Assembly: GCF_034424215.1 (NCBI RefSeq)
Contig: NZ_CP139960.1
Span: 3,534,001 to 3,598,000, forward strand
From: Niabella yanshanensis
GTDB lineage: Bacteria > Bacteroidota > Bacteroidia > Chitinophagales > Chitinophagaceae
Reading direction: 5' to 3'
DNA length: 64,000 nt
The stretch's first letter is position 1. Each line of letters begins with the position of its first letter. The translations under genes were made by a program, and so were the position numbers. Positions 3,101-20,263 of this stretch are shown in pieces. Below the pieces are notes generated by a model that was not told the origin of the DNA, did no database searches, and saw only the letters and a list, made by a program, of their open reading frames with translations.

Positions 3101-3337
3101 GGAAGTTATATACGTATCAGAAACCTGCAATTAGGCTATAATATTCCGCAAAAAATCATTTCTAAAGTGGGTATCAAAAATCTGAAAGTTTTTGCCAATG
3201 TACAAAACTTAAAAACCTGGAAACGTAATAGTGGCTATTCGCCTGAATATGGTGGAGATGCAACTTCGTTCGGTTTTGACTTTGGCGGTAACGCGATTCC
3301 AAGGGTAACATCTTTTGGCCTTAATGTAACGTTCTAA
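173..3337 (+). CDS. SusC/RagA-family TonB-dependent outer membrane receptor
   Basis: Outer-membrane transporter that imports glycan oligomers with energy from TonB/ExbBD. The 1054-residue product has an N-terminal hydrophobic signal (about residues 20-38), a carboxypeptidase-D-like regulatory domain (about 40-115), a TonB-box-like VVVIGYG stretch, a plug domain (about 130-245) and a beta-barrel ending in the aromatic residue F. Length and order match SusC. There is no STN domain, so it is not of the sigma-factor-signalling type. An alternative ATG lies six codons downstream at 191; neither start has a clear ribosome site. It is followed 21 bp later by its SusD partner, so the two are surely co-transcribed. 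The neighbouring beta-glucanases suggest beta-gluco-oligosaccharides as cargo; that is inference. Confidence 0.95.
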   Translation: MKGLQIMREEPRRIRTRNWAGMFLFFLAIFFSSTGFSQTITVKGNVISDAGSALPNVSVQVKGATIGTATDSSGNFSITVPGANSVLVFSSIGYTEKEEAVNGRTELAVVLTASSQSLEQVVVIGYGTAAKRDLTGSIVKISGAEVADKPNSNPVASLQGKVAGLSVVNNGTPGSAPDIRIRGTGSIGQVKPLYVVDGIFQDNIDYLNPNDIESLEILKDPSSLAIFGVKGATGVIAITTKKAKSGQVVVNFNTSLGFKNLVDKIQMANASQFAEMYTEEMIAAGNAAPTINGNSNTDWIDAVTRVGKVSINNLSISSATERNKVNFGIGYLYDEGIIKHQQLSRFNINFSDEFKVSKNIKAGVNLIASRQNNPYDVGSVLDDARKVVPQISDGTKRFRVRDLYGNPTDSIDVDLYSGLDVGLQNSGVVNPLVRLENEWDRVKNIEFRTVGSVFLDINLSKSLNWRSTVYADISNVNKRQYTPTYYAYDPVTNTPYVYSLTTKIKENDDSYKKYQQDHILTYKKKLGDHNLTATAGFTTYYFGYFGREGNASQSIAVGGKPIPNDERFWYINNGFQDPLSTTATSTQNEYTTVSGLARALYNYKNRYFLNGSFRRDASSRLYRSVPAQSFWALGAAWDISKESFFNQLSKTVSSLRLKGSIGVLGNQSAYNQNTGTPLDYPLYPLLSSGQSAVFGTNVYTAADETYLRNANLKWEQVHSHEIGIEGVAFNNRLNFEVNYFSKTTKDLMTFIDNSSLGLKSALLNAGELKNTGTEISAGWNQDITPDFGISVSGNITFLNNKVLDLSADLPAGKVIRGHTNNNAAQAITQIGFPIGYFYGYVVEGLYQSYADVLSSPDASGVGGTYGPGDFKFKDVNGDGVITPEDRTIIGNPTPDFAYGGSISFNYKGLSLGVDINGVYGNEVFRTWASLESPFQRVNYAALQEGRWNGEGTSNWVPILGQAHRFNYNGSSYNIEDGSYIRIRNLQLGYNIPQKIISKVGIKNLKVFANVQNLKTWKRNSGYSPEYGGDATSFGFDFGGNAIPRVTSFGLNVTF

Positions 3338-3358: not shown

Positions 3359-4936
3359 ATGAAACAGTTGAAAAATGGTTGGTTTATATATGCACTGGCC
3401 TTTTCACTTTTAGGTGCAGTCGGGTGCAAAAAATTTTTGGATAGAGAGCCTCTAACAGCCACACTGCCCGATTTAAAGCAAGGCGCTTTAGAGTCGCAAT
3501 CATATAATATGTACCGGTTAATGCGCACTAATTCCGGACTTACCGAACTGGTATGGCTGGATTTTCATAGCATCAGGGATGATGATGCCCAAAAGGGGAG
3601 TGATGCAGGAGATGGCACAGAAGTGGTAGGTATGTATGATAAATTCGGTTACGCAAAGAGTGGGTGGGCGCCGGATACTTACTGGAACGATCATTATGCA
3701 TTAATTACTGCGGCCAATACATCTATTCATCTAGCCAAAACAAATAACCTCACGGATGCAGCTTCTTTAAGGAACGTGGGGGAAGCGTGTTTCTTTATGG
3801 CGCATAGTTATTTTGAGCTGGTAAAAGCTTACGGTGAAGTACCAATCGTGAATTTTTTTGTATCAAAACCGAGTGATGCCATTCGTCCAAAATCAAGTGT
3901 CGAAGATGTATACAAGTTTATCGATTCAAACTTGCTGGTTGCAGAAAGGTTATTGCCACTTACATCAGCAGAGTACGGTGCGGGCTTTGATGGCCGGCTC
4001 ACCAGGGCAGCTGCCCACACTTTAGCTGCACAAACATTCTTGTTTAGAAAACAGTGGGATTCAGTATTAAATAGAGTCAATAAGGTAATAGACATGAATA
4101 AATACTCCTTGCCGAAGTTTACCGATGTGTGGAAGGATGGTAAAAGTGGTGCAGGCAAAAACGGACCCGAATCTATTTGGGAAATGCAATCTACAGTAGG
4201 TGAAAATGGAGCAAACATATCGGCAAAGGATCAGGGCTCTAACTGGGCAGTTTCTCAAAATGTTCGTAGAAACGGAGCTCCGGTATTTTGGAATTTCGGC
4301 TGGGGCTGGAATACGCCAACAGACAAACTTGAATCAGAATGGCCTTCTACTGATCCGCGAAAAAAGGCTACCATTTTATATTCGGGTCAATACGACGGAG
4401 GACCAGAGCAAGGTGGCTATGGTCTTACTTTGCCAGCTTACACTAACCCGGAAGGAGCTGGGGGGCTAGCTCAGAAATTCTGGAATAAGAAGGTTTATGC
4501 TGATCCTGAGATGAGAACTTTTACTGGTTTTATTGATGGAGGTGCCGGTCGCTGGATCAACCGCCGTATACTGCGCTATGCTGACGTGATATTAATGAAA
4601 GCAGAGGCGGCTAATGAAAAAGGAGATGGTGCAACCGCAGAAGCTATGCTGGAATTGGTTAGAAACCGCGCCAGTGGCTTTTTGGGTACGGGAAGAGCCA
4701 TCGTGCCTAAAATAGCATTCACAGGGCAGGCACAAATGCGCCAGGCCATAAAAGATGAGCGCCGTTGGGAGTTTGCTATGGAAGGATATCGGTTTTACGA
4801 TTTAGTGCGTTGGGGTGATGCAGTAACGATTTTAGGTCCGTTGGGCTTTACTCCTCGTTGCCAATATCATCCTATACCACAGGCTGCTATAGATTTGTCT
4901 GGTGGTGTTTTGAAACAAAATCCAAACTGGAATTAA
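3359..4936 (+). CDS. SusD/RagB-family surface glycan-binding lipoprotein
   Basis: Surface lipoprotein that caps the SusC barrel and delivers glycan to it. The 525-residue product has a lipoprotein signal with Cys at about residue 23 followed by KKFLDREP, the usual SusD start. The TPR-like helical body follows, with the conserved C-terminal block around ERRWEFAMEGYRFYDLVRW (about residues 471-489) and a final region rich in PIPQ, both diagnostic of RagB/SusD. It lies between SusC and a LamG lipoprotein with 15-21 bp gaps, as expected of one operon. Confidence 0.95.
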   Translation: MKQLKNGWFIYALAFSLLGAVGCKKFLDREPLTATLPDLKQGALESQSYNMYRLMRTNSGLTELVWLDFHSIRDDDAQKGSDAGDGTEVVGMYDKFGYAKSGWAPDTYWNDHYALITAANTSIHLAKTNNLTDAASLRNVGEACFFMAHSYFELVKAYGEVPIVNFFVSKPSDAIRPKSSVEDVYKFIDSNLLVAERLLPLTSAEYGAGFDGRLTRAAAHTLAAQTFLFRKQWDSVLNRVNKVIDMNKYSLPKFTDVWKDGKSGAGKNGPESIWEMQSTVGENGANISAKDQGSNWAVSQNVRRNGAPVFWNFGWGWNTPTDKLESEWPSTDPRKKATILYSGQYDGGPEQGGYGLTLPAYTNPEGAGGLAQKFWNKKVYADPEMRTFTGFIDGGAGRWINRRILRYADVILMKAEAANEKGDGATAEAMLELVRNRASGFLGTGRAIVPKIAFTGQAQMRQAIKDERRWEFAMEGYRFYDLVRWGDAVTILGPLGFTPRCQYHPIPQAAIDLSGGVLKQNPNWN

Positions 4937-4951
4937 TTAAATTATTACGTA

Positions 4952-5815
4952 ATGAAAAATATAATAAAGAGTTTTTTATTGATTGGTGGAGGAATAATGA
5001 TACTCACTTCATGTCAAAAATTTGAACGTCCCGGATTAGGAGAGTATCCAAGCGATAAGCCAGTTACTCCCAGCACTCCTTTGCGTTTTTATGTACCATT
5101 CGATTCTACAAAACTGGAGGCAAAGCAAATTAATATAAGATTTGGGGATGAAATTTCCGGACGTCCTTCATTTTTTGTTGATAAGGCTATCTCATATGAT
5201 CAGGGTGTCAGCGGAACTGCCTATAAAGGCGCAGATGGTGTTGCCGTGCGATATCTGGATGCAAATGATATGAAAAGTGCTACCAGTTTTACAGTAGCTT
5301 TTTGGATGAAGCAATCAGTTGCAGAGGCTGCCGGAAGGACTCAGTTTGTGTTTTCTTTTGTAGATGAAACTTATAGCTGGGCCAAGAGTGCGATGTTCAT
5401 GATGGTAGAACATGCTACGGCTACTGATGCAACAGTGAAGGTTACTATTATGGACCAGTGGTTAGAGTTCGCCGGAGACAATAAGCTGAAAAAGCCGATG
5501 TTTGACGGTAACTGGCACCATTGGGCAATGACCTACGATCAGGCAACTTCTAAACTGAGCTACTACTTCGATGGCGTTAATGTATCCGCTCCGGCAGCTG
5601 CTACCGATGTAAAAAAATCTGGCGCGCCGAGAGGAGCATTAGACTTTTCTAAAGCATCCAGTCTGGTAATTGGAGGATATAACAGGCAGGGCGGAGCCCC
5701 GGCTGCCTCTGACGATTGGATGAAATCCTTTGCGGGCAGTATAGATCAATTCCGGATGTATAATAAGGTATTGACCATTGCCGAAATTAAGGAGTTATTT
5801 GAAGGGAAGAAATAG
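4952..5815 (+). CDS. LamG/concanavalin-like domain lipoprotein, probable surface glycan-binding protein
   Basis: A 287-residue lipoprotein with Cys at about residue 21 after a short hydrophobic signal. From about residue 45 to the end it resembles a LamG/laminin-G-like jelly roll: FTVAFWMKQ, GNWHHWAMTYD, KLSYYFDGVNV and a terminal IDQFRMYNKVLTIAEIKELF, the typical closing strand of LamG_3 domains. It sits directly after SusD, where PULs usually encode SusE/SusF or other surface glycan-binding proteins, so a binding role on the cell surface is likely. I see no catalytic motif. Binding specificity cannot be told from sequence. Confidence 0.8.
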   Translation: MKNIIKSFLLIGGGIMILTSCQKFERPGLGEYPSDKPVTPSTPLRFYVPFDSTKLEAKQINIRFGDEISGRPSFFVDKAISYDQGVSGTAYKGADGVAVRYLDANDMKSATSFTVAFWMKQSVAEAAGRTQFVFSFVDETYSWAKSAMFMMVEHATATDATVKVTIMDQWLEFAGDNKLKKPMFDGNWHHWAMTYDQATSKLSYYFDGVNVSAPAAATDVKKSGAPRGALDFSKASSLVIGGYNRQGGAPAASDDWMKSFAGSIDQFRMYNKVLTIAEIKELFEGKK

Positions 5816-5945: not shown

Positions 5946-7130
5946 ATGGTAGCAATAGTTTTTTTATTGTGGCAATGTAGAAATGGAGAGGGTACTGTCG
6001 AAAAGTTAAGCAAAGTTGATGGTTCGCAATATGTGGGCTCAAAAGCATGCGAGTCGTGTCATAAAGAAATTGTACAGCAACATTTAAAAACAGCTCATTA
6101 CAATACCACAAAATCTGCTACCAATGATCAGGATATTATCGGAGGATTTACAAGTGCCAAGAATTTGTATGACTTTGGTAACGGCAATCAAGTAAGAGTT
6201 GAAAAAAGAGGCGATTCCGTGTATCAGGTGGCTTATGTTCAGGGTGATGAAATGAAAATACAAAGCATCTGTGTGTTATTTGGTGCCGGCAAGCATGCTC
6301 AGTCCTATGCATCCTGGGTGGGCGATAAATTAGTGCAATTACCACTTACCTATTTTGTGGAGCATCAGGCTTTGAGCAATAGCCCGGGCTATCCCAATAA
6401 AATAGTATACAATAGGGTTATTACCTCCCGTTGTATGGAATGCCATACTACTTTTGCTGAAGTAATTAAAACGAACGGCAACCTGGAGGAGTTTAGTAAA
6501 AAGTCGGTAATGTATGGAATATCTTGCGAAAAATGCCATGGACCTGCCGCCGATCATGTAGCTTTTCATACAAAAAATCCTAAAGATACAATTGGTAAAA
6601 ACATCATCAGTACCAAAGGATTTACCCGCCAGCAGCAAATAGATATGTGTGCGGTGTGTCATTCGGGAACTATGAATGAATTACAACCCCCTTTCAGTTT
6701 TAAGTCCGGAGATCAACTATCAGATTTTTATGCGTACAATATTGTAGCACCGGATATAGAAAGTTTAGATGTACACGGCAACCAGTACGGCATGCTTTCT
6801 TTGAGTGAATGTTTCGTAAAAAGTGAAATGACATGTAATAGTTGCCATAATTCACATGAAAGGGAAGATGGACATAAGAACGTTTTCTCACAAAAATGCA
6901 TGAACTGTCATAGCCGGCGTTTGCACAATTTTTGTAGTAATAAAGCGGTTACAATGAATCGTTTAGAAGAGAATTGTATAGATTGTCACATGCCTGCCAG
7001 GCCATCCAATGCAATCATGTTTACTGATCAAGGTACGAAAAAGAAAACAGGTGTGCAAATGCGTACGCATTACATTAAAATATATCCGGAAGAAACAAAA
7101 ACTATCGTAGCGTATATTAATAAGAAATAA
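5946..7130 (+). CDS. Seven-haem c-type cytochrome, membrane-attached, within the PUL
   Basis: The product has seven CXXCH haem-binding motifs (CESCH, CMECH, CEKCH, CAVCH, CNSCH, CMNCH, CIDCH) spread over the chain, the first near residue 36. It resembles multihaem cytochromes of the c554/doubled-CXXCH type and should act outside the cytoplasm in electron transfer. The N-terminus starts in a hydrophobic stretch ending in a Cys (residue 11), a possible lipobox. The reading frame stays open upstream to 5862 and encodes a Lys-rich segment followed by hydrophobic residues, but has no in-frame ATG/GTG/TTG before 5946, so the start is uncertain. It lies on the same strand between LamG lipoprotein and GH30 genes. 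Its role in the PUL is unknown. Confidence 0.85.
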   Translation: MVAIVFLLWQCRNGEGTVEKLSKVDGSQYVGSKACESCHKEIVQQHLKTAHYNTTKSATNDQDIIGGFTSAKNLYDFGNGNQVRVEKRGDSVYQVAYVQGDEMKIQSICVLFGAGKHAQSYASWVGDKLVQLPLTYFVEHQALSNSPGYPNKIVYNRVITSRCMECHTTFAEVIKTNGNLEEFSKKSVMYGISCEKCHGPAADHVAFHTKNPKDTIGKNIISTKGFTRQQQIDMCAVCHSGTMNELQPPFSFKSGDQLSDFYAYNIVAPDIESLDVHGNQYGMLSLSECFVKSEMTCNSCHNSHEREDGHKNVFSQKCMNCHSRRLHNFCSNKAVTMNRLEENCIDCHMPARPSNAIMFTDQGTKKKTGVQMRTHYIKIYPEETKTIVAYINKK

Positions 7131-7146
7131 AATATTTTTTTCAATC

Positions 7147-8595
7147 ATGCACCCTAAAAAATCTTTATTAGCCTTATATCTGCTGGCGTTGGTCTCTATT
7201 TGTGCTCAATGCAATAAAAATAGCAGCGGAGAGAAAACACCAACTCCCCCCAACCCGTCTGGCCTCATTAACGAAGTAGACGTATGGCTGACAAAAGGAG
7301 ATAAGACTGTATTGTTGCAAAAACAAAGCAAAGTCATCAGTTTTTCCGGTACTGTTAATGGCAACTCTACTATCGAAGTTGATGATAGCAAGCAATATCA
7401 AACCATGGACGGTTTTGGATATACACTCACAGGCGGCAGCGCTGCTTTAATTAACCAGATGGAGTCTACGAAAAAGGCTGCATTGATTGCTGAGCTTTTT
7501 GGAACCGGGATTAATGATATCGGGATCAGTTACATACGCGTAAGCATGGGCGCGTCCGACCTGGATGCAACTGTGTTTAGTTATAACGATTTACCAGCCG
7601 GAGAAACGGATGGTCCTCAAAACAAATTCAGTATAGCCGCAGATAAAGTGCATCTGATACCTATACTAAAAATGGTGTTGGCTATTAATCCTAGTATCAA
7701 AATTATTGCTACTCCCTGGAGTCCTCCTGCATGGATGAAGGATAACAATAACAGTGTTGGGGGTAGCCTTAAGTCCGAATACTATGCGTCTTATGCGACT
7801 TATTTTATAAAATATATTATGGCAATGAAAGCTGAGGGCATTACGATTAATGCCGTTACGCCGCAAAATGAACCATTGCACCCGGGGAATAATCCCAGCA
7901 TGTATATGACAGCAGAACAGCAAAGAGACTTTATAAAGAATAATCTGGGACCGGCATTCGTGGCACAGGGAATACAAACAAAGATTATCCTGTATGATCA
8001 TAATCTTGATAAACCAGAGTATCCGCTCACTATATTAAATGATGCCACTGCCAGGCAATATGTGGATGGAACTGCCTTCCATTTTTATGCCGGAGATATT
8101 TCGGCCATGTCACAGATATATAATGCTTATCCCGATAAGAATGTATATTTTACAGAGCAATGGACAGACTCGGAAGGCCAGTTTGCAGGAGATCTAAAAT
8201 GGCATATCAAAAATATTATCATAGCCACATCAAGGAATTGGAGTAAAATAGCATTGGCCTGGAATCTGGCTAATGATCCATACATGGGACCTCACACGCC
8301 TGGCGGTTGTACCCGATGCCTCGGGGCTCTAACAATCAACGGTTCTGCAGTTACCAAAAATGTAGCCTACTACAATATTGCGCATGCTTCTAAATTTGTG
8401 CCTGCAGGCTCTAAGCGCATAGAAAGCAGCAATAGTGCACAGGTTTCTAACGTAGCATTTCTTACGCCGCAGGGTAAAAAAGTAATGATCGTTGTAAATG
8501 ACAATAATAATACGGCTTCTTTCAATATTAAATACAAAGGCAAACTGGCCCCGGTAAGCCTGGAGGGTAATTCGGTTGCTACATTTGTATGGTAA
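7147..8595 (+). CDS. GH30-family beta-glucanase/beta-glucosidase, lipoprotein
   Basis: Secreted glycoside hydrolase of family 30 (clan A, retaining). The 482-residue product starts with a lipoprotein signal (Cys22) and then shows the GH30 hallmark QTMDGFGYTLTGGSA (about 85-99). The acid/base is Glu242 in TPQNEP and the nucleophile is Glu337 in YFTEQW; both are present, so the enzyme should be active. The C-terminal beta-sandwich part runs from about 400 to the end. GH30 members in Bacteroidota PULs include beta-1,6-glucanases (subfamily 3) and glucosylceramidase-like enzymes; with GH144 and GH3 neighbours a beta-glucan is the likely substrate. The start is 17 bp after the cytochrome gene. Confidence 0.88.
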   Translation: MHPKKSLLALYLLALVSICAQCNKNSSGEKTPTPPNPSGLINEVDVWLTKGDKTVLLQKQSKVISFSGTVNGNSTIEVDDSKQYQTMDGFGYTLTGGSAALINQMESTKKAALIAELFGTGINDIGISYIRVSMGASDLDATVFSYNDLPAGETDGPQNKFSIAADKVHLIPILKMVLAINPSIKIIATPWSPPAWMKDNNNSVGGSLKSEYYASYATYFIKYIMAMKAEGITINAVTPQNEPLHPGNNPSMYMTAEQQRDFIKNNLGPAFVAQGIQTKIILYDHNLDKPEYPLTILNDATARQYVDGTAFHFYAGDISAMSQIYNAYPDKNVYFTEQWTDSEGQFAGDLKWHIKNIIIATSRNWSKIALAWNLANDPYMGPHTPGGCTRCLGALTINGSAVTKNVAYYNIAHASKFVPAGSKRIESSNSAQVSNVAFLTPQGKKVMIVVNDNNNTASFNIKYKGKLAPVSLEGNSVATFVW

Positions 8596-8656: not shown

Positions 8657-10339
8657 ATGAAAGTGAAATATTCAGATACCATTATTTTTACAGGGCTTCT
8701 ACTATCAATGGCGTGTAGTAAGAAGGGCAACAATGGTACAGATCAATCTGTTGCGCCGCCGTTGGTATTAAAAAGTATCACGATCCAGGATCAACCGTTT
8801 GGCGCTGTCGCAATCAATCAGCCGGTTCAACCAGTTATTCAATTAATATTGTCAGAACCTGTAAAACCAGGAACTGTAGCCGGGGCTATCACTTTGAAAG
8901 ATCCGTCGGGCAATACGGTACCGCTTCAGGCTGTGGCCAGTAATGGGGGAATTACAGTAAAACCCAATAGTAGTTTATCATATCTTACAAAATATAGTAT
9001 TATTGTCAATAGCTCATTGCAATCTTTATCCGGCGGTAATTTACAAGCCGCAGTTAATAATAGTTTTGTCACTCATCTTGACTCTTCCCGAAAATTTCCC
9101 GCACTTACCAATGAGCAGCTTTTGGATAAAGTACAGCAGCAAACCTTAAAATATTTCTGGGATTTTGCGCATCCCACAAGCGGCATGATCAGGGAGGGTA
9201 GTAAACATGCGCCGGATATTGTCACCAGCGGTGGTACTGGCTTTGGAGTAATGGCGCTGATCGCAGGGATGGAAAGAGGTTTCATCGACAAAGCGCAGGG
9301 ATTGGAGCGGATAAAAACGATGGTATCATTTTTAAAAGATAAAGCACAACGTTTCCACGGAGCTTTTCCTCACTGGATGAACGGCGCTTCGGGGGCCGTT
9401 ATTCCGTTTAGCGCTAATGATAATGGCGCCGACCTGGTTGAGACTTCGCTCCTGATGATGGGGTTAATAACAGCCCGCCAATACTTTACCGGGGCTGATG
9501 CTTCGGAAGCTAACCTGCGAAATGATATCAATAACTTATGGAAAGCCGTGGAGTGGGACTGGTTCAGGCAGAACAGCCAAAACGCTTTATACTGGCATTG
9601 GAGTCCCTCTTCAGCCTGGACAATGAACCTGAAAGTGCAGGGTTGGAATGAATGCCTGATCACCTATGTACTGGCTGCATCTTCTGCTACGCATACCATC
9701 ACAAAGGATGTGTATGATAATGGCTGGGCCAGAAATGGCGCATTCAAAAACGGGAATACTTATTATACATACCCTCTGCCATTAGGTGAAAATATGGGCG
9801 GTCCGCTGTTTTTGGCGCATTACTCCTTTATGGGCATTAATCCTAACGGATTGAGTGATGCCTATGCTAATTATCAAACGCAAACAAAAAATCATACGCT
9901 TATCAATCACGAGTATTGCAAGGCTAACCCCAAAGGATATTATGGATACAGTGATTCGGTATGGGGTCTGACGGCCAGCAATATTAAAGACGGCTATACA
10001 GCGTCATCACCCACTAATGACCAGGGCTTTATTGCACCCACCGCGGCTATTGCTTCTATGCCTTACACACCGGCCGAATCGATGGCGGCATTGAAGTTCT
10101 TTTATTATGTATTAGGAGACAAATTGTTTAAGGAGTATGGATTTGTGGATGCTTTTTCTTTAGATGTGGTGAAGAATAATGGCGCCTGGTTTGCCGATGC
10201 TCATTTAGCTATTGACCAGGGACCTATTGTAGTAATGATCGAAAACTACAGATCGGGTTTGCTATGGAATTTATTTATGAGTGCGCCGGAAGTAAAAGCC
10301 GGAATGAAAAAACTGGGCTTTAGCGGACCTGACTTATAG
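8657..10339 (+). CDS. GH144-type (glycoamylase-like) endo-beta-1,2-glucanase homologue, lipoprotein with N-terminal Ig-like domain
   Basis: First of three consecutive paralogues. The 560-residue protein has a lipoprotein signal (Cys at about residue 20), an Ig-like Big_5-type domain (about 35-140, with the NNSFVTHL ending), and then a roughly 400-residue alpha/alpha-barrel of the PF10091 glycoamylase family, now CAZy GH144. Conserved blocks are LKYFWDFAHPTSGMIRE, TGGTGFGVMA-like, FPHWMNGASG, NDNGADLVETSLL with ARQYF, and IDQGPIVVMIENYRSGLLWNLFM. A characterised GH144 enzyme from Chitinophaga pinensis is an endo-beta-1,2-glucanase. The lipid anchor suggests action at the cell surface. Substrate is inferred from family. 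Confidence 0.85.
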   Translation: MKVKYSDTIIFTGLLLSMACSKKGNNGTDQSVAPPLVLKSITIQDQPFGAVAINQPVQPVIQLILSEPVKPGTVAGAITLKDPSGNTVPLQAVASNGGITVKPNSSLSYLTKYSIIVNSSLQSLSGGNLQAAVNNSFVTHLDSSRKFPALTNEQLLDKVQQQTLKYFWDFAHPTSGMIREGSKHAPDIVTSGGTGFGVMALIAGMERGFIDKAQGLERIKTMVSFLKDKAQRFHGAFPHWMNGASGAVIPFSANDNGADLVETSLLMMGLITARQYFTGADASEANLRNDINNLWKAVEWDWFRQNSQNALYWHWSPSSAWTMNLKVQGWNECLITYVLAASSATHTITKDVYDNGWARNGAFKNGNTYYTYPLPLGENMGGPLFLAHYSFMGINPNGLSDAYANYQTQTKNHTLINHEYCKANPKGYYGYSDSVWGLTASNIKDGYTASSPTNDQGFIAPTAAIASMPYTPAESMAALKFFYYVLGDKLFKEYGFVDAFSLDVVKNNGAWFADAHLAIDQGPIVVMIENYRSGLLWNLFMSAPEVKAGMKKLGFSGPDL

Positions 10340-10446
10340 AGTTGCGATTCGTCATTCAACCCTATCTTCAGAAGTTTTATTCGGGGCAGAAGGTTTGGAC
10401 GCATCACTTGTCAGGTACTTCATATTTTTATTGACAAAACGTAATT

Positions 10447-11814
10447 ATGAAAATCAGAAAGTACTTTTTACCCATTTTTATTTTTTTAACTGCGGCGTCC
10501 ACAATAGCAACTGCACAAAAACCAGTTGCTCTTAAACCCGCGGGTATTCCTTACACGGTTAAAGTAGATAAAAACATTTCTGATTCTGCGCTTATTGACC
10601 TGGTGCAAAAACAAACCATCCGTTATTTCTGGGATTTTGCCCACCCGGTAAGCGGATTGGCGCGTGAACGTAGTAATGTATCTTTTAACTATGGGCCTGA
10701 AGTAACTACTACAGGGGGAACAGGTTTTGGCATTATGGCCCTGATCGTGGGTGTCAATCGGGGATGGATCGAAAGAGACACCGCAGCCCGCTTTATGTTG
10801 AAAATGGTGAAGTTTCTTTCCAAAGCAGATGCCTACCACGGCGTGTTCCCGCACTGGCTGGATGGGGCAACGGGCAGGACCATTCCTTTTAGCAGGAAGG
10901 ATGATGGGGCTGATTTAGTTGAATCATCCTTTTTGTTCCAGGGCTTACTAACGGCCAGGCAGTATTTCAACGGTACCAATGATGTAGAGCGTGATTTGCG
11001 CAATCGCATTAACTGGTTGTGGAATGATATAGAATGGAACTGGTTTACCAATGGTGGCCAAAATGTATTGTACTGGCACTGGAGCCCCAATAACGGCTGG
11101 GCAATGGACTTCCCGGTGCGCGGCTTTAATGAATGTTTGATCATGTATGTGCTTGCGGCATCCACTCCCAACGAAAAATACCAGGTACCGGCCTCTATAT
11201 ATCACCGGGGGTGGGCACAAAGCGATTTCTTTATCAATAAACGCAAATTCTATAATTATACATTGCCCTTAGGTTTTGATTACGGCGGGCCCTTATTCTT
11301 TTCGCATTATTCCTTCCTCGGACTTTCTCCCAGGGGTTTAAAAGACCGTTATGCTGATTACTGGGAGCAGAACCAGAGTCATTCTTTGATCAATTATAGC
11401 TACTGTGTAGACAATCCTAAAGCTTTTAAAGGATATGGAGAAAATTGCTGGGGACTCACGGCAAGCGATACCTATAACGGGTACGATGCTCATTCTCCTA
11501 CCAATGATCATGGAACCATAACTCCCACGGCAGCGCTCTCGGCATTTCCCTATGCCCCGGCGCAGTCGATGAAAGCATTAAGACATTTTTATGTAGATCT
11601 GGGAGACAAAATATGGAGCCCTTATGGCTTTACCGACGCCTTCAATAAAACACAAAACTGGTATGCAACATCACACCTGGCTATCGATCAGGGCCCGATT
11701 GTTGTAATGATAGAAAATTACAGAACAGGCTTGCTGTGGAATCTTTTTATGAGTTGTCCTGAAATAAAAAATGGTTTAAAAAAGCTGGGCTTTACAAGTG
11801 GGTATCATCAGTAA
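10447..11814 (+). CDS. GH144-type beta-1,2-glucanase homologue with signal peptide
   Basis: Second GH144 paralogue, 455 residues. It has a cleavable signal peptide (hydrophobic residues about 7-22, cleavage after ATAQ) and no lipobox, so it is probably periplasmic. The catalytic domain starts near residue 45 and shares all blocks of its neighbours: IRYFWDFAHPVSGLARE, GVFPHWLDGATG, KDDGADLVESSF, and IDQGPIVVMIENYRTGLLWNLFMSCPE. Unlike the first copy there is no Ig-like module. Characterised GH144 members cut beta-1,2-glucan either endo or as sophorose-releasing exo-enzymes; which applies here is not visible. A 107-bp gap separates it from the first copy and its 3' end overlaps the third. Confidence 0.85.
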   Translation: MKIRKYFLPIFIFLTAASTIATAQKPVALKPAGIPYTVKVDKNISDSALIDLVQKQTIRYFWDFAHPVSGLARERSNVSFNYGPEVTTTGGTGFGIMALIVGVNRGWIERDTAARFMLKMVKFLSKADAYHGVFPHWLDGATGRTIPFSRKDDGADLVESSFLFQGLLTARQYFNGTNDVERDLRNRINWLWNDIEWNWFTNGGQNVLYWHWSPNNGWAMDFPVRGFNECLIMYVLAASTPNEKYQVPASIYHRGWAQSDFFINKRKFYNYTLPLGFDYGGPLFFSHYSFLGLSPRGLKDRYADYWEQNQSHSLINYSYCVDNPKAFKGYGENCWGLTASDTYNGYDAHSPTNDHGTITPTAALSAFPYAPAQSMKALRHFYVDLGDKIWSPYGFTDAFNKTQNWYATSHLAIDQGPIVVMIENYRTGLLWNLFMSCPEIKNGLKKLGFTSGYHQ

Positions 11815-13069
11815 AAATAAAATTCAAAAAAGTAACCAGGAACGATTGAGCGATGAGGCTTTGCTGGAGCTCGTGCAGCAACGCACGTTCCGGTATTTCC
11901 GGGATTTTGCCGAGCCGAACTCTGGTATGGCGCGCGAGCGTAACCGCGACACATTTCAAAACGTAGTCACCACGGGTGGTTCTGGGTTTGGCGTGATGGC
12001 AGTTATTGTGGCAACGGAACGAAAATGGATCACCAGAAATGAAGCTGTTATCCGTATAAAGCAAATATTATCCTTTTTGTCGGGGGCAGACCGGTACCAT
12101 GGCGCTTTTGCCCACTGGATCGATGGTAACACCGGCAAAACGGTTCCCTTTAGCAAAAAAGATAATGGAGCAGATCTGGTTGAGACCTCTTTTTTATTCC
12201 AGGGACTTTTAACCGCACGCCAGTATTTTACCAAAAGAAACAAAGATGAAAAATGGATACGGGAAACCATAACTAGCCTGTGGGAGCAGGTAGAGTGGCA
12301 ATGGTTTACGAGAGGCCGCGATGTTTTATACTGGCATTGGAGCCCGGAGCATCAATGGAAAATGAACCTGAAGATTGAAGGATATAACGAAGCGCTGATT
12401 ACCTATATACTGGCGGCAGCATCTCCGCAACACGCAATATCCAGAGATGTATATGACAGCGGTTGGGCCCGAAATGATTCCATGAAAAATGGGCGAACCT
12501 TTTATGATGTGCAACTTCCTTTAGGACCAGATTTCGGCGGTCCGCTCTTCTTTGCACATTTTGGTTTTGCAGGATTAGATCCCCGTGGGTTAAAAGACCG
12601 CTTTGCCGATTACGGTAAACAGAACCTGGCACATGTAAAAATCAACTACAGGTATTGCATTGACAATCCATCCGGTTTTAAAGGATACGGGAAAGAAAGC
12701 TGGGGTCTGTCTGCCTGCGATTATAAGAAACGATACCATGAACAATCGCCGTTAAAAGATAATGGAACAATCTGCTGCTCAGCGGCATTGGCCAGTATGC
12801 CTTATACGCCCAAAGAATCAATGGCAGCTTTACGTTATTTTTATGAAGAATTGAGCAGCAAAATTTTCGGGGAATACGGCTTTACGGACAGCTTCAATCA
12901 AACCCATAACTGGCATGCCGATTCTTACCTGGCCATTAACCAGGGAATTACTATTTTAATGATTGAAAATTATCGCACCGGTTTGCTTTGGAATCTTTTT
13001 ATGAGCGATCCAGATATAAAGAGCGGCTTATCCCGTTTGGGATTTAGAAGTCCCTGGCTAACAAAATAA
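11798..13069 (+). CDS. GH144-type beta-1,2-glucanase homologue without signal peptide
   Basis: Third GH144 paralogue, 423 residues, essentially only the catalytic domain: TFRYFRDFAEPNSGMARE, GAFAHWIDGNTG, KDNGADLVETSF, INQGITILMIENYRTGLLWNLFM. The frame opens with GTG at 11798, inside the end of the previous gene (17-bp overlap), and there is no in-frame ATG before the conserved domain, so translation is probably coupled to the upstream gene. The N-terminus is hydrophilic and Lys/Gln rich with no signal peptide. It would therefore be cytoplasmic unless fused or exported otherwise. The IDQGP block is altered to INQGI, so activity or specificity may differ. Confidence 0.8.
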   Translation: MGIISKNKIQKSNQERLSDEALLELVQQRTFRYFRDFAEPNSGMARERNRDTFQNVVTTGGSGFGVMAVIVATERKWITRNEAVIRIKQILSFLSGADRYHGAFAHWIDGNTGKTVPFSKKDNGADLVETSFLFQGLLTARQYFTKRNKDEKWIRETITSLWEQVEWQWFTRGRDVLYWHWSPEHQWKMNLKIEGYNEALITYILAAASPQHAISRDVYDSGWARNDSMKNGRTFYDVQLPLGPDFGGPLFFAHFGFAGLDPRGLKDRFADYGKQNLAHVKINYRYCIDNPSGFKGYGKESWGLSACDYKKRYHEQSPLKDNGTICCSAALASMPYTPKESMAALRYFYEELSSKIFGEYGFTDSFNQTHNWHADSYLAINQGITILMIENYRTGLLWNLFMSDPDIKSGLSRLGFRSPWLTK

Positions 13070-13075
13070 TTTTTT

Positions 13076-14917
13076 ATGATACCAGCTTTAAGAATATATA
13101 GCAGCAGATTTGCGACGTCCATCTGCCCATTGTGCAGGCTCCGTTTAACAGTGCTGCTGCTATCATCTTTTTTGTGCTCAGCACTTAGGGCGCAGATGGG
13201 AAATGCAAATAAAGCCGATACTTATTGTAATCCTATAAATATTGATTATGGCTATACGCCCATTCCTAATTTCAGTACCTGGGGGCGTCATCGTGCAACG
13301 GCTGACCCGGTGATTGTTAATTATAAAGGGGATTATTATCTGTTCAGCACCAATCAGTGGGGCTATTGGTGGAGCAACAATATGTTGAACTGGAAGTTTA
13401 TATCTAAAAAGTTCCTGCGCCCATGGAACGCAGGTGTATATGATGAGTTGTGTGCGCCTGCTGTAGGCATTATCGGAGATACCATGCTTGTGTTTGGTTC
13501 CACCTATTCCCGCAACTTTACGATCTGGATGAGCACCAATCCAAAGGCCAACGAATGGAAGCCGCTGGTTGACTCTTTTGATATCGGCGGATGGGACCCT
13601 TCTTTCTTCACGGATGAGGATCAGGGGCTATACATGTACAATGGCAGCAGCAATAAGTTTCCTATGTATGGAGTAGAGTTGGATAGAAAAACGATGGTGC
13701 CGCAAGGCGCCCGGAAAGAAATGTATTTATTGGAGCCCTGGCGTTTTGGCTGGCAGCGCTTTGGCGAACATATGGACAATACTTTTTTAGATCCGTTTAT
13801 AGAAGGCAGCCATATGACCAAACATAAAGGGAAATACTATTTGCAGTATGGCGCGCCCGGTACCGAGTTCAGCGGTTATGCTGACGGCTTATTGGTAGGA
13901 ACGGGCCCGCTTGGTCCTTTTGAAGCGCAGTCCGATCCTTTAAGTATAAAACTGGGAGGCTATGTACGTGGTGCAGGTCATGGCGCTACTTTCAAAGATA
14001 ACTATAATCGCTTCTGGCATGTATCCACTACCGTACTTTCGGTAAAAAATACATTTGAACGCCGCCTGGGTATCTGGCCTACAGGTTTTGACGCCGACGG
14101 TACGATGTGGTGCAATACCACTTTTGGCGACTATCCACATTATATTCCATCGGGAACCATAAAGGATGGCTATGGAGAAAATGGACTGTCACCTTATTTT
14201 ACGGGGTGGATGCTGCTTAACTACAACAAGCCGGTACAGTCGTCTTCAACATTAGGAAGCTATGGTCCCAATAACGCCGTAGATGAGTTGATGAAAACTT
14301 ACTGGAGCGCGAAAACAGGTGATAAGGGTGAATGGTTTCAAACAGATTTGGGCAATATTTCTACAGTACACGCCGTTCAGATCAATTATGCGGACCAGGA
14401 TGTGGCTGACGACAGGTTAGGCAAGTTTAACGATCAATATCATCAGTATAAGTTGTATTACTCATTGGACGGAAAAAAGTGGACCCTGTTAGTTGATAAG
14501 AGTGCTAATAAAACGGACATCCCGCATGAGTATATACAGTTAAACCAACCGGTACAGGCGCGCTTTATTAAACTGGAAAATATACACATGCCAACCGGGA
14601 AATTTGCACTAAGCGGTTTCAGGGTGTTTGGTAATGGAAATGGCTCAACGCCCGGTATAGTAAGAGATTTTGTTGTACTGAGAACTGAAAAGGATAAACG
14701 CAGCGCCTTTATAAAATGGAACCCGGTAGATAATGCATTTGCTTATAATATTTTTTATGGTACGCATCCTGATAAATTGTATACCAGCATCATGGTACAT
14801 AATAACAATGAATACTGGATGAAGGCGATGGATTCTCAAAAGCCCTATTATTACTGTATCCAGTCGGTTAATGAAAACGGGGTGAGTGAGAGAAGTAAGG
14901 TTATAAAGGTAGACTGA
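13076..14917 (+). CDS. GH43-like enzyme with F5/8 type C and FN3 modules
   Basis: Secreted 613-residue multidomain hydrolase. A long N-terminal signal region (hydrophobic about 23-38, ending RAQ) leads into a five-bladed beta-propeller of the GH43/clan F type (about 48-370). Candidate catalytic residues are Asp77 in ATADPV, Asp174 in GGWDPSFF and Glu243 in FIEGSH, matching base, pKa modulator and acid. A discoidin (F5/8C) carbohydrate-binding module follows (about 385-525, ending LSGFRVFG), then an FN3 domain (about 530-613). It begins 6 bp after the GH144 stop. GH43 members usually cut arabinose, xylose or galactose linkages; in this context it may remove side groups. Exact specificity is unknown. 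Confidence 0.8.
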   Translation: MIPALRIYSSRFATSICPLCRLRLTVLLLSSFLCSALRAQMGNANKADTYCNPINIDYGYTPIPNFSTWGRHRATADPVIVNYKGDYYLFSTNQWGYWWSNNMLNWKFISKKFLRPWNAGVYDELCAPAVGIIGDTMLVFGSTYSRNFTIWMSTNPKANEWKPLVDSFDIGGWDPSFFTDEDQGLYMYNGSSNKFPMYGVELDRKTMVPQGARKEMYLLEPWRFGWQRFGEHMDNTFLDPFIEGSHMTKHKGKYYLQYGAPGTEFSGYADGLLVGTGPLGPFEAQSDPLSIKLGGYVRGAGHGATFKDNYNRFWHVSTTVLSVKNTFERRLGIWPTGFDADGTMWCNTTFGDYPHYIPSGTIKDGYGENGLSPYFTGWMLLNYNKPVQSSSTLGSYGPNNAVDELMKTYWSAKTGDKGEWFQTDLGNISTVHAVQINYADQDVADDRLGKFNDQYHQYKLYYSLDGKKWTLLVDKSANKTDIPHEYIQLNQPVQARFIKLENIHMPTGKFALSGFRVFGNGNGSTPGIVRDFVVLRTEKDKRSAFIKWNPVDNAFAYNIFYGTHPDKLYTSIMVHNNNEYWMKAMDSQKPYYYCIQSVNENGVSERSKVIKVD

Positions 14918-14957: not shown

Positions 14958-17240
14958 ATGGTAAAGAACGCGTTATTGTCAGTTGTTTTTCTTTTTGTTT
15001 TGGTAAGCATAGCTGGCGCCCAGGGGGGTGATGCCGCTATGAACAGCTATATCAGCAATCTGATGAGCAGGATGACGCTGGACGAAAAAATTGGTCAGCT
15101 GAATTTACCCAGCGCCGGTGAATTCACTACGGGAACGGCTACCAATTCTGATATCGGGGTAAATGTAAAAAAAGGGCTGGTGGGCGGACTCTTCAATATC
15201 AAGGGCGTAGAAAAGATCAAAGCCATTCAAAAAGTAGCGGTAGAGGAAAGCCGCATGAAAATCCCTATGCTTTTTGGTATGGATGTGATACACGGTTACG
15301 AAACGACTTTCCCCGTTCCATTGGGCTTATCCTGTACCTGGGACATGAAAGCTGTAGAACAATCGGCCCGCATTGCGGCCATGGAGGCCAGCGCCGACGG
15401 TATCGGCTGGACCTTTAGTCCTATGGTGGATGTGTCCCGCGATCCGCGCTGGGGACGGGTTTCGGAAGGCAATGGCGAAGACCCCTATTTAGGGTCACAA
15501 ATTGCCAGGGCGATGGTTAAAGGCTACCAGGGCGATTTAAAGTCAAATAGTAATATACTGGCTTGTGTAAAACACTATGCCTTATATGGTGCAGGGGAAG
15601 CTGGTCGGGATTATAATACGGTAGATATGAGCCGCATCCGGATGTACAATGAATATTTCCCCCCTTACAAAGCTGCTGTTGACGCAGGAGTCGGAAGTGT
15701 AATGGCTTCATTTAATGAAATAGATGGTATTCCTGCCACAGGTAATAAATGGTTGTTGACCGATGTGTTACGTAAGCAGTGGGGCTTTAAAGGCTTTGTA
15801 GTAACGGATTATACAGGTATCAACGAAATGGTGGATCATGGAATGGGTGATCTGCAGGCAGTATCAGCGCTTGCTTTAAAAGCAGGTGTGGATATGGATA
15901 TGGTGGGCGAAGGATTCTTAAAGACGCTGAAAAAATCTTTAACAGATAAAAAGGTGACAGCGGCAGAAATTGACCTGGCTTGTCGCCGCATGCTGGAAGC
16001 AAAGTATAAACTGGGACTGTTTAAAGATCCTTACAAATACTGCGATGAAACTCGTGCTAAAAATGAAATTTTTACAGATGCTAACCGGAAAATAGCCCGG
16101 CAGATCGCTGCAGAAAGTTTTGTGTTATTGAAGAACCAGGACAATGTACTGCCTTTAAAAAAAGCAGGAAAGATTGCTTTGATAGGCCCACTGGCCGATG
16201 CCGCCAATAATATGGCCGGTACATGGAGCGTAGCTACCAAACAGGATAAGTCTATATCCGTTTTAGCCGGATTAAAACAAGTATTAGGAAATAGTGCCGA
16301 AGTGCTTTATGCAAAAGGAAGTAATCTTACCGCAGACGCCGTGTTGGAAGAGCGGGCTACCATGTTTGGCAAGGGCTTAAACCGGGATCAACGCAGCGAG
16401 GAGGAGCTGGCTAAAGAAGCGCTGAAGATGGCAGCCCAAGCGGATGTGATTGTTGCGGCCATGGGTGAATCAGCCGAGTTTAGCGGGGAAGCCAGCAGCC
16501 GTTCCAATATTGATATCCCTGAAACACAGCAAAAACTCCTGAAACAATTACTGGCCACCGGCAAGCCCTTGGTATTAGTATTATTTGCTGGTCGTCCGTT
16601 AACATTGAGCTGGGAAGAGAAAAATGTACCGGCCATCCTGAATGTTTGGTTTGGGGGAAGTGAAGCGGGTACCGCTATTGCTGATGTATTATTCGGCGAT
16701 GTAAACCCCTCGGGTAAATTAACTATGAGCTTCCCGCAGAACCTGGGACAGATCCCTATCTACTATGCTCATAAAAATACCGGTCGCCCGTTAGCAGAGG
16801 GCAAGTGGTTTCAGAAATTCAGAAGTAATTATATTGATGTAAGTAACGATCCCCTGTACCCTTTTGGATATGGCTTAGGCTATAGCTCTTTTACGTACAG
16901 TGATGTAAAGTTGAGCAGTGCATCTCTAAAAGGCAATCAAACTTTAAAAGCCAGCATTACGCTGACAAACTCCGGTAAGTATGACGGAAAAGAAGTAGTG
17001 CAACTGTATATAAGGGATGTGGTGGGTAGTGTAACCAGGCCCATGAAGGAGCTGAAAGGGTTTCAGAAGGTAGCCGTTAAAGCTGGTGAATCTAAAACTA
17101 TCATCTTCAATATTACGCCCGAAGATTTAAAATTCTATAACAGCAACCTGAAGTACGATTGGGAGCCGGGTGAATTTGAAATAATGGTGGGTAGCAACTC
17201 CAGGGATGTTAAAATGCAAAAAGTCAACTGGGTGAAATAA
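14958..17240 (+). CDS. GH3 beta-glucosidase (BglX type)
   Basis: Periplasmic exo-glucosidase that would finish gluco-oligosaccharides to glucose. The 760-residue protein has a signal peptide (about 1-21, cleavage at AGAQ), the GH3 N-terminal barrel with VKHYALYG and the nucleophile Asp284 in VVTDYTG, the GH3 C-terminal alpha/beta domain (about 390-620) and the FN3-like C-terminal domain (about 665-755). Length matches BglX. GH3 enzymes acting on sophoro-oligosaccharides are known from Bacteroides, which fits the GH144 neighbours. It is the last gene of the locus and a hairpin follows. Confidence 0.92.
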   Translation: MVKNALLSVVFLFVLVSIAGAQGGDAAMNSYISNLMSRMTLDEKIGQLNLPSAGEFTTGTATNSDIGVNVKKGLVGGLFNIKGVEKIKAIQKVAVEESRMKIPMLFGMDVIHGYETTFPVPLGLSCTWDMKAVEQSARIAAMEASADGIGWTFSPMVDVSRDPRWGRVSEGNGEDPYLGSQIARAMVKGYQGDLKSNSNILACVKHYALYGAGEAGRDYNTVDMSRIRMYNEYFPPYKAAVDAGVGSVMASFNEIDGIPATGNKWLLTDVLRKQWGFKGFVVTDYTGINEMVDHGMGDLQAVSALALKAGVDMDMVGEGFLKTLKKSLTDKKVTAAEIDLACRRMLEAKYKLGLFKDPYKYCDETRAKNEIFTDANRKIARQIAAESFVLLKNQDNVLPLKKAGKIALIGPLADAANNMAGTWSVATKQDKSISVLAGLKQVLGNSAEVLYAKGSNLTADAVLEERATMFGKGLNRDQRSEEELAKEALKMAAQADVIVAAMGESAEFSGEASSRSNIDIPETQQKLLKQLLATGKPLVLVLFAGRPLTLSWEEKNVPAILNVWFGGSEAGTAIADVLFGDVNPSGKLTMSFPQNLGQIPIYYAHKNTGRPLAEGKWFQKFRSNYIDVSNDPLYPFGYGLGYSSFTYSDVKLSSASLKGNQTLKASITLTNSGKYDGKEVVQLYIRDVVGSVTRPMKELKGFQKVAVKAGESKTIIFNITPEDLKFYNSNLKYDWEPGEFEIMVGSNSRDVKMQKVNWVK

Positions 17241-18429: not shown

Positions 18430-18505
18430 CGCCATGGCGCCTGGCCTTCGGGTCTTGCAATAAATGAGTAACTGGCATAGTGTATGCTTGTAGAATGGAA
18501 TTACT

Positions 18506-18513
18506 TATATTTG
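18506..18513 (+). promoter_or_regulatory. -7 box of the ECF sigma/FecR operon
   Basis: TATATTTG fits TAnnTTTG. It lies 17 nt before the ATG pair at 18531/18534 and downstream of the GTG (18480) and ATG (18495) that could extend the frame, so it argues for the shorter start. Confidence 0.5.
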
Positions 18514-18530
18514 TTTTGACGCTTGCTTGC

Positions 18531-19130
18531 ATGATGCACGAAGATAGATTGCCCGATAACGTTTTTACTGAGAAGTGGAAGCACCTGATTGCCGCTGGTA
18601 ATGAAGATGCTTTCAGGGAGATGTTCAATGCCTATGCCGGCCGTTTAACGGCATTTGCTTTTTCCATTACCAAGAACAAAGAAGCGTCAATTGAAATAAT
18701 GGACGAAGTGTTCATTAAGATATGGAAACATAAAGAACAGCTGACCCGGATTACCAATATAACTACCTACCTATATACGGCTACTAAAAATACGGCACTC
18801 AATTTCTTATCTCATAAAAGCAGGGAAACTCATTTGCAGGCGTTCGACTTTATTAATATTGAGCTTATGGAAGAAGAGCGTCCTGACCAGCGATTGATAT
18901 CGTCCGAAATTTTATCAAAAATTAAAAAAGCGGTAGAAGGACTTCCTCCCAGGTGTAAAATAATTTTTAAGCTGGTTCGCGAAGATGGCTTAAAATATAA
19001 GGAAGCTGCAGAAGTACTGGGCGTTTCGGAGAAGACCATAGATGCCCAGATGGTGATTGCGGTAAAGCGTATAGGAGACGCTGTCGGCAGTTATTTTGAT
19101 TGTTTTCCCGCCAGGTTTCAAAAAAAATAA
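18531..19130 (+). CDS. ECF (FecI-like) RNA polymerase sigma factor
   Basis: Extracytoplasmic-function sigma-70 factor of about 199 residues. Sigma2 spans the region with LIAAGNEDAFREMFNAYAG and AFSITKNKEASIEIMDEVFIKIWK; sigma4 covers VEGLPPRCKIIFKLVREDGL, KYKEAAEVLGVSEKTIDAQM and the DNA-binding helix. This is the Bacteroidota FecI-like type that is held by a FecR anti-sigma. The frame can be extended to GTG 18480, but a promoter -7 box lies at 18506-18513, so ATG 18531 or 18534 is preferred. The fecR gene follows after 54 bp and an STN-containing SusC after that, giving the standard trans-envelope signalling order. Confidence 0.9.
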   Translation: MMHEDRLPDNVFTEKWKHLIAAGNEDAFREMFNAYAGRLTAFAFSITKNKEASIEIMDEVFIKIWKHKEQLTRITNITTYLYTATKNTALNFLSHKSRETHLQAFDFINIELMEEERPDQRLISSEILSKIKKAVEGLPPRCKIIFKLVREDGLKYKEAAEVLGVSEKTIDAQMVIAVKRIGDAVGSYFDCFPARFQKK

Positions 19131-19184: not shown

Positions 19185-20263
19185 ATGAAGGAAGAACTGG
19201 CCATACTACTATCCCGTAAATTATCAGGGGAGGCTACGCCCGCGGAATTAAAGAAACTCGGGGAATGGATCAGGGACAACCCTCAGGATCATTATGTTAT
19301 TGAGTCGGTTCAGCTGTATTGGCACAGTATGCCTGGACAGGACTTTTTTAATATTTCGGATAATGCGCATTTTGAGCGGATACTGAATAAAGCTGAAACA
19401 TCCGCTGTTCCACTGTATGGTTTACAAAAGGCGGAGAAAAAAGACCGGCCATTGTGGTTGAAATGGATCGCTGCGGCTGCCTTTATTGGCTTTGCAATTG
19501 TAGCCGCGATCATGTTCCAGCAACAGTTGCAAAAAGGCGATGGCGCGAAGAACGATATTGTAACCAGCCGGGGAATAAGGTCAAAGATCATTTTACCCGA
19601 TGGTACCAAAGTTTGGCTGAACGCCGATACGAGGCTGAATTTTGATAAAAAGTTTAATGGCGCGTTAAGGGAGGTTTATCTGGATGGAGAAGCTTTTTTC
19701 GATGTTGTCCAAAATAAGGAACGGCCCTTTATTGTGCATACTTCGGATATTGACATACGGGTACTGGGTACCGCATTCAATGTGAAGTCGTATAAAGAGG
19801 AGGCTACAATTGAGGCAACCCTGATCCATGGCTCCATACAGGTGTAACTAAGCAGAAGGAGTGTATACCCAAAATTATACTCAGTCCCAATGAAAAGCTG
19901 GTATTTAATAAGTTAATCGGAAAAGTTGTGGAGTCGCCTGATCACCTGCCCATGGTTCAACAAAAAGAACCTCAATACCTGGTGTCAAAAATTGCGGTAA
20001 ACGAAAGCAATGACTCATCGATTGTAGAAACTGCCTGGGTCCACAACCGGTTATTGTTTGACGGAGATTCATTTAGAGAACTGGCGATAAAGATGGAACG
20101 CTGGTTTGATGTACAAATAAAGTTTGAGAGCACAGAAGTAGCCAATTACCGTTTGCGCGGAGCATTCGAAGATGAAACGATTGGGGAAGCCTTAAAAGCC
20201 CTGCAACAAATCGCCAATTTTAAATTTACTGTAAGAGATAAAACTGTAACGATAGCTAAATAA
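19185..20263 (+). pseudogene. FecR-family anti-sigma factor, split by a frameshift
   Basis: The first part (19185-19847) holds the cytoplasmic N-terminus, one membrane helix (about residues 89-108, LWLKWIAAAAFIGF) and the FecR domain with SRGIRSKIILPDGTKVWLNA and RPFIVHTSDIDIRVLGTAFNV. It stops at TAA 19845 directly after LIHGSIQV. The coding pattern continues without a gap in another frame from 19844, reading VTKQKECIPKIILSPNEKL, and runs through a DUF4974 domain (FRELAIKMERWFDVQIKF) to 20263. The whole would be a normal-length FecR of about 360 residues. A -1 shift (one lost base) near 19835-19847 explains it. The upstream half alone lacks the periplasmic end that contacts the STN domain. 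It could be a mutation or a sequence error. Confidence 0.85.

Follow-up and report, generated by a model that had tools for sequence, protein, structure and literature searches.

Three adjacent genes of glycoside hydrolase family 144 (GH144) in Niabella yanshanensis, whose products are probably glucanases acting on beta-1,2-linked glucan, differ in their N-termini, and the third of them belongs to a clade of Niabella genes without an export signal. The genes lie in a stretch of 64,000 nucleotides (nt), hereafter the window, which covers positions 3534001–3598000 of the single-contig genome of 5.54 Mb; positions given below are those of the window. The genes are referred to as copies 1, 2 and 3 in their order on the plus strand. 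To judge from its sequence, copy 3 probably remains inside the cell and works as an enzyme there. We favour, with slightly more confidence than doubt, the reading that this genus-specific copy is cytoplasmic, is co-translated with the exported copy 2 and cuts imported short beta-1,2-linked gluco-oligosaccharides.

The three genes had been described in an earlier note as GH144-type paralogues with three different N-termini, and both statements hold. Matches to PF10091 lay far above the cut-off of 27 bits in copy 1 (8657–10339; 235.8 bits), copy 2 (10447–11814; 264.0 bits) and copy 3 (11798–13069; 240.3 bits). Elsewhere in the genome this model gave one weaker match only, inside a very large protein encoded outside the window. 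A search of solved structures with copies 2 and 3 returned CpSGL, the Chitinophaga pinensis enzyme (PDB 5gzh; E 1.6e-160 for copy 2 and 1.9e-144 for copy 3), and copies 1 and 3 share 53% identity. Copy 1 shows the n-region, hydrophobic core and lipobox cysteine of a lipoprotein (MKVKYSDTIIFTGLLLSMAC; lipobox LSMAC, in the context LLLSMAC/SKK), followed by an Ig-like domain matching Big_5 (residues 40–139) and the PF10091 region (residues 326–543). Copy 2 begins with a classical signal peptide (MKIRKYFLPIFIFLTAASTIATAQ; hydropathy peak 2.39, locus L035) ahead of its GH144 domain. Copy 3 starts at a GTG codon and has the GH144 domain but no signal peptide.

A signal sequence upstream of the predicted start of copy 3 was looked for and is absent. 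The reading frame comprises 429 codons for amino acids, with an in-frame stop at 11777–11779, six codons ahead of the GTG at 11798, and whichever usable start codon is taken, hydropathy and the length of the junction indicate that the protein has no N-terminal export signal. Copies 2 and 3 overlap by 17 nt (11798–11814, plus strand), including the copy-2 stop codon TAA at 11812–11814, an arrangement predicted to couple their translation, and the copy-3 domain starts 46 nt past that stop. In all 11 tandem junctions found in Niabella the GH144 domain begins 42–63 nt beyond the copy-2 stop, so that there is no room for a usual signal on copy 3. The start codon lies at one of three places in ten of the 11 junctions: an ATG 2 nt past the stop (TAA-gc-ATG) in G002, G003, G006, G010 and G013, an overlapping codon at −17 nt that is GTG in G000, G005 and G009 and ATG in G001, and a GTG 15 nt past the stop in G008. 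The cytoplasmic placement of copy 3 is thus well supported by its sequence, since no upstream signal was missed and, as described below, the catalytic residues are kept.

The comparison was extended to 17 Niabella genomes, 12 of which contain a copy-3 gene (G000, G001, G002, G003, G005, G006, G007, G008, G009, G010, G012 and G013). Ten of these genes are intact; those of G007 and G009 are each split into two frames. The lack of a signal recurred in every one of the 11 further Niabella copy-3 genes examined, including that of G012, in which a different gene stands between copies 2 and 3 (N-terminus MKILNSLKQKQFFDANISD). The N-terminal hydropathy peak did not exceed 1.06 at the ten intact copy-3 loci, whereas it was at least 2.19 at 43 of the 45 other GH144 loci. 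Both exceptions are accounted for, L037 (1.68) by a lipobox signal in a neighbouring frame and L054 by a value of 2.96 when re-read, and the other GH144 N-termini that were read hence point to export. A second set, containing many of the same genes, gave peaks of at least 1.95 at 28 of 28 loci. Hydropathy values for the broken copy-3 loci L019 and L021 are those of fragments, and the N-termini of G007 and G009 were taken from L009 and L008.

Among 396 genomes sampled from the order of the host, 179 gave a match, with Niabella represented among the matches only by G000, G004 and G015. The best order-wide match beyond the window's own copy scored 664 bits, compared with 859 bits for the latter, a value inflated by the presence of that copy in the query. 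N-termini were read for 29 other loci returned from the order, further members being known by frame length alone, and it is for this sample that the signal-less copy 3 can be called Niabella-specific. Pairs of a long and a short GH144 gene recur in the family of the host, for example in G018, G070 and G085.

The catalytic residues of copy 3 were compared with those of the Chitinophaga pinensis enzyme. According to the accessible part of one study of CpSGL (PMC12102758), E211 is the likely general acid and E142 the likely base, D135, D139 and E142 are needed, and E211, F268 and Y330 define the SGL clan; D400, conserved in many groups of that clan, is dispensable, D400 mutants being reported to retain activity. 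In the alignment D135, D139, E142, E211, F268, Y330 and D400 correspond to D122, D126, E129, E198, F251, Y313 and N381 of copy 3. The equivalents of the four acidic residues D135, D139, E142 and E211, mutation of which is reported to reduce CpSGL activity strongly, are kept in all ten intact copy-3 proteins, as they are in copy 1, and the clan-defining E198, F251 and Y313 are present in copy 3 and invariant in seven copy-3 rows. The first three acidic residues lie in the block DNGADLVE (residues 122–129; 12161–12184, plus strand), and the proposed general acid, Glu198, is encoded at 12389–12391 on the same strand.

The change of an IDQGP block to INQGI in copy 3, pointed out in the earlier note, is real, and its Asn, like the missing signal, is more than an accident. 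It places Asn381 (12938–12940, plus strand) at the D400 position, which is Asn in ten of ten intact copy-3 proteins and Asp in each of the 45 other GH144 rows. This is not the loss of a needed residue, because D400 mutants of CpSGL retain activity and a second structurally characterised homologue, BDI_3064, likewise has Asn. At the position of CpSGL G329, preceding Y330, copy 3 has Arg (Arg312-Tyr313; 12731–12736, plus strand), again in ten of ten rows as against Gly in 45 of 45 others. Altogether, copy 3 has 14 fixed residues, each of them present in no more than one in ten of the other rows; several flank catalytic residues in sequence, namely E194, Y196 and A199 near E198, R312 beside Y313, and N381. 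Retuning of a subsite would explain this pattern more readily than loss of activity. An (alpha/alpha)6 fold for copy 3 would follow from homology; an AlphaFold2 model built from five sequences was too poor for use (mean predicted local distance difference test score 46.2).

Copy-3 genes are under purifying selection. The ratio of non-synonymous to synonymous substitution rates (dN/dS) was 0.035–0.089 for copy 3 (dS being finite in 19 of 45 pairs) and 0.017–0.046 for copy 2 (20 of 36); pairs with saturated dS, 26 and 16 respectively, were excluded, and as synonymous distances are large these ratios are rough. The least saturated pair, G010/G013, gave 0.049 for copy 3 versus 0.025 for copy 2. 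Copy 3 forms a single clade (support 100/98). A quick tree placed it, with long branches, outside the family-wide group of exported copy-2 proteins, while a tree in which it was held with Niabella copy 2 was not rejected (approximately unbiased test, p-AU 0.154). A recent duplication of Niabella copy 2 as the origin of copy 3 is disfavoured by the quick tree but not by the test. L019, L021 and L054 were left out of both trees and of the counts of ten and 45 rows; the second tree was in addition built without the distant GH144 gene of G014.

From what is directly observed, namely the three N-termini, the anatomy of the junction, the conserved signal-less state and catalytic residues, and purifying selection, we infer the coupling in action as well as the location, activity, substrate and substrate source of copy 3. 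A long and a short exported GH144 enzyme are encoded side by side with the export-signal-free, Niabella-specific copy 3, which on the proposed mechanism would stay in the cytoplasm. Ribosomes ending copy 2 would restart at the copy-3 start codon, located either within the end of copy 2 or just behind its stop, and the outside and inside enzymes would therefore be made together. The substrates that copy 3 cuts would then most likely be short beta-1,2-linked gluco-oligosaccharides reaching the cytoplasm on induction of the locus.

Several observations weigh against this proposal. Copy 3 is absent from five of the 17 Niabella genomes (G004, G011, G014, G015 and G016), in which the best matches are other GH144 copies, and by dN/dS it is under weaker constraint than copy 2. 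In G007 a TTG is the sole in-frame start. The export calls were made by a hydropathy rule and not with SignalP, and by this rule a signal is present on each of the five GH3 proteins that the genome encodes. The genome gave no match to GH1 and no GH94 outside a synthase-like protein, i.e. no stand-alone phosphorylase, and no inner-membrane oligosaccharide transporter was found among the genes of the locus and ten further window genes scanned, without a genome-wide search. The cysteine content of copy 3 is not distinct either (mean 5.4 versus 4.9 in the family rows), and this candidate marker of a cytoplasmic location was dropped, as the difference is of no use. The suggestion of the earlier note that glucan breakdown extends across surface, periplasm and cytoplasm is therefore upheld for the cytoplasmic copy 3 and weakened for the cascade as a whole: copy 1 has only a lipobox and its surface exposure is putative, and no cytoplasmic partner was seen among GH3, GH1 and GH94 proteins.

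Copy 3 might instead act on beta-1,2-glucan that the cell itself makes, which we regard as unlikely. About 64 kb downstream of copy 3 the genome encodes a 2890-residue cyclic-glucan-synthase-like protein with GH94 and PF10091 domains; Pfam found no glycosyltransferase domain in it, a point against this alternative, and it is called synthase-like because of its other domains and its length. A GH94 match is present in 16 of the 17 Niabella genomes, and in 13 of these it shares a contig with a GH144 match (approximately 33–131 kb apart); all soluble domains of the Agrobacterium Cgs face the cytoplasm according to the available part of PMC10901819. However, the GH94 match also occurs in four of the five genomes that lack copy 3, so that neither depends on the other; copy 3 lies within a SusCD locus next to an exported enzyme, and a free cytoplasmic glucanase could damage synthesis. 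With modest confidence, we rank imported oligosaccharides first as the substrate of copy 3, ahead of self-made glucan. A wider proposal, in which a cytoplasmic Niabella branch of GH144 with a changed active site, coupled to its exported twin, links the breakdown of foreign beta-1,2-glucan to the handling of the cell's own beta-1,2-glucan in the cytoplasm, seems doubtful to us. Export of copy 3 after all, by recoding with copy 2 (frameshifting or readthrough) or by a signal-independent route, would be in keeping with the copy-3 frame being open backward into copy 2 in nine of 11 junctions and with the TTG of G007, but is very unlikely given that copy 3 is read, with respect to copy 2, in a frame that varies between species (0 in G008; 1 in G000 and G001; 2 in G002, G003, G006, G010 and G013), that G012 has an intervening gene, and that an ATG or GTG is available at −17, +2 or +15 nt in all junctions but one. 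The varying frame also leads us to reject a programmed fusion of copies 2 and 3 as the general case: recoding can be conserved only where the frame relation is.

It is also possible, if improbable, that copy 3 is no longer an endo-beta-1,2-glucanase and has acquired a changed reaction or linkage, such as exo release of a disaccharide, or transfer. The clade-wide replacements of D400 by Asn and G329 by Arg and the changes flanking the general acid are compatible with this, as is the Asn at the D400 site of BDI_3064, which we take to be an exo-type GH144 enzyme; in G012 the copy-3 sequence AINQAP even resembles the LNQAP of BDI_3064. One residue in common nevertheless says little about a common mode of action, the additional N-terminal region of BDI_3064 has no counterpart in copy 3, and copy 3 keeps the residues reported essential by mutation. 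That copy 3 is a decaying, functionless duplicate is extremely improbable: it changes faster than copy 2 and its frame is disrupted in G007 and G009, but dN/dS is far below 1 and the four key acidic residues are all present in ten intact genes. The neighbours of copy 3 in G007 and G009 are likewise broken, which suggests assembly indels. Broken frames affect several genes of the locus in stretches L072, L074 and L076 (G005, G007 and G009), where they are probably assembly indels too.

The genes surrounding the three GH144 copies, all on the plus strand, form a SusC/SusD polysaccharide-utilisation locus (PUL), with adjacent SusC-like and SusD-like genes and then glycoside hydrolases. The SusC-like TonB-dependent receptor (173–3337) and the SusD-like protein (3359–4936) are followed by a Laminin_G_3 protein with a lipoprotein signal by eye and a putative role in glycan binding (4952–5815), a multihaem cytochrome c-like protein (5946–7130) and a GH30 enzyme (7147–8595). 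For the latter the nearest named model is the endo-1,6-beta-glucanase BT3312, at 386 bits and thus below the cut-off of 700 bits, and 5ngk was matched as well. Downstream of copy 3 lie a GH43 protein with an F5/8 type C domain (13076–14917) and a BglX-like GH3 beta-glucosidase (14958–17240), above the cut-off of the BglX model and exported by hydropathy. A set of GH144, GH30 and GH3 enzymes would suit a beta-1,2-glucan with beta-1,6 branches, a structure on record for osmoregulated periplasmic glucans (PMC11842490, as far as its text was accessible). By its gene content, the locus would thus serve beta-1,2-glucan, perhaps with beta-1,6 branches.

Neighbourhoods were compared in 17 stretches of at most 20 kb from 16 other Niabella genomes, the contig of G012 being only 7 kb long. 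The GH144, GH30, GH43 and GH3 genes recur in varying subsets across these genomes, and SusC and SusD vary between the species. The multihaem cytochrome c-like gene within this carbohydrate locus was seen elsewhere only in G001 and G011 among the fetched neighbourhoods. In G008 (L075:12380–16107) copy 3 and GH43 are separated by genes for a Gfo/Idh/MocA oxidoreductase, a protein of the glucosamine-6-phosphate isomerase/6-phosphogluconolactonase type and a GMC oxidoreductase, a hint that some species may have an oxidative route for sugars. Four relatives have a 218-codon, esterase-like gene with the motif FIGSSSFTKW, exported by eye, directly before GH3 (L069:14133–14789, L068:14656–15312, L075:18106–18762 and L077:5598–6254); none is present between GH43 and GH3 in the N. 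yanshanensis window. Further downstream in the window, behind a sigma-70-like factor (18480–19130), a FecR-type anti-sigma factor is split into FecR (19185–19847) and FecR_C (19928–20263).

The signal-less clade and the exported copy that it abuts provide a natural pair for studying the partition of beta-1,2-glucan use among the cell compartments of Bacteroidota. The same pair allows one to ask whether the changes at D400 and G329 alter the mode of cutting in copy 3.

Among characterised relatives, CpSGL (a GH144 endo-beta-1,2-glucanase; PDB 5gzh, 5gzk) is homologous to copies 2 and 3 along the full length of their domain. It shares with copy 3 D135, D139, E142, E211, F268 and Y330, and differs from it in the signal peptide that copy 3 lacks, in the Asn at D400 and Arg at G329, and in the clade-specific changes near the general acid. 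BDI_3064 (PDB 5z06) has a homologous domain and, in LNQAP, the same Asn; unlike copy 3, it is a chain of 712 residues in which the match begins at residue 281, with an N-terminal region and an insertion that are both missing from copy 3, and its score with copy 3 is lower than that of CpSGL (443.2 versus 484.7 bits). The top-scoring solved relative is a putative glucoamylase, PDB 4gl3 (544.4 bits with copy 3, 615.2 bits with copy 2), to which the listing assigns no function and which, in contrast to copy 3, has the Asp of IDQGP. An exo-type GH144 enzyme releasing sophorose is named in the accessible parts of PMC12369401 and PMC8861115. In the open-licence papers searched we found no description of a cytoplasmic GH144 enzyme, nor of a conserved GH144 clade that lacks a signal and lies directly next to an exported copy. 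GH144 itself, its role in PULs, and a cluster with several GH144 genes and an outside/inside division are already known or proposed, as far as the available texts of PMC6499787 and PMC8861115 go: GH144 loci are among the abundant PULs of Bacteroidetes (PMC6499787), and a split of the work between outside and inside has been put forward for an Ignavibacterium album cluster with two GH144 genes (PMC8861115). In the accessible portions of these two papers the inside steps are assigned to GH94 and GH35 enzymes and not to GH144, whereas in Niabella a GH144 enzyme would itself act inside the cell.

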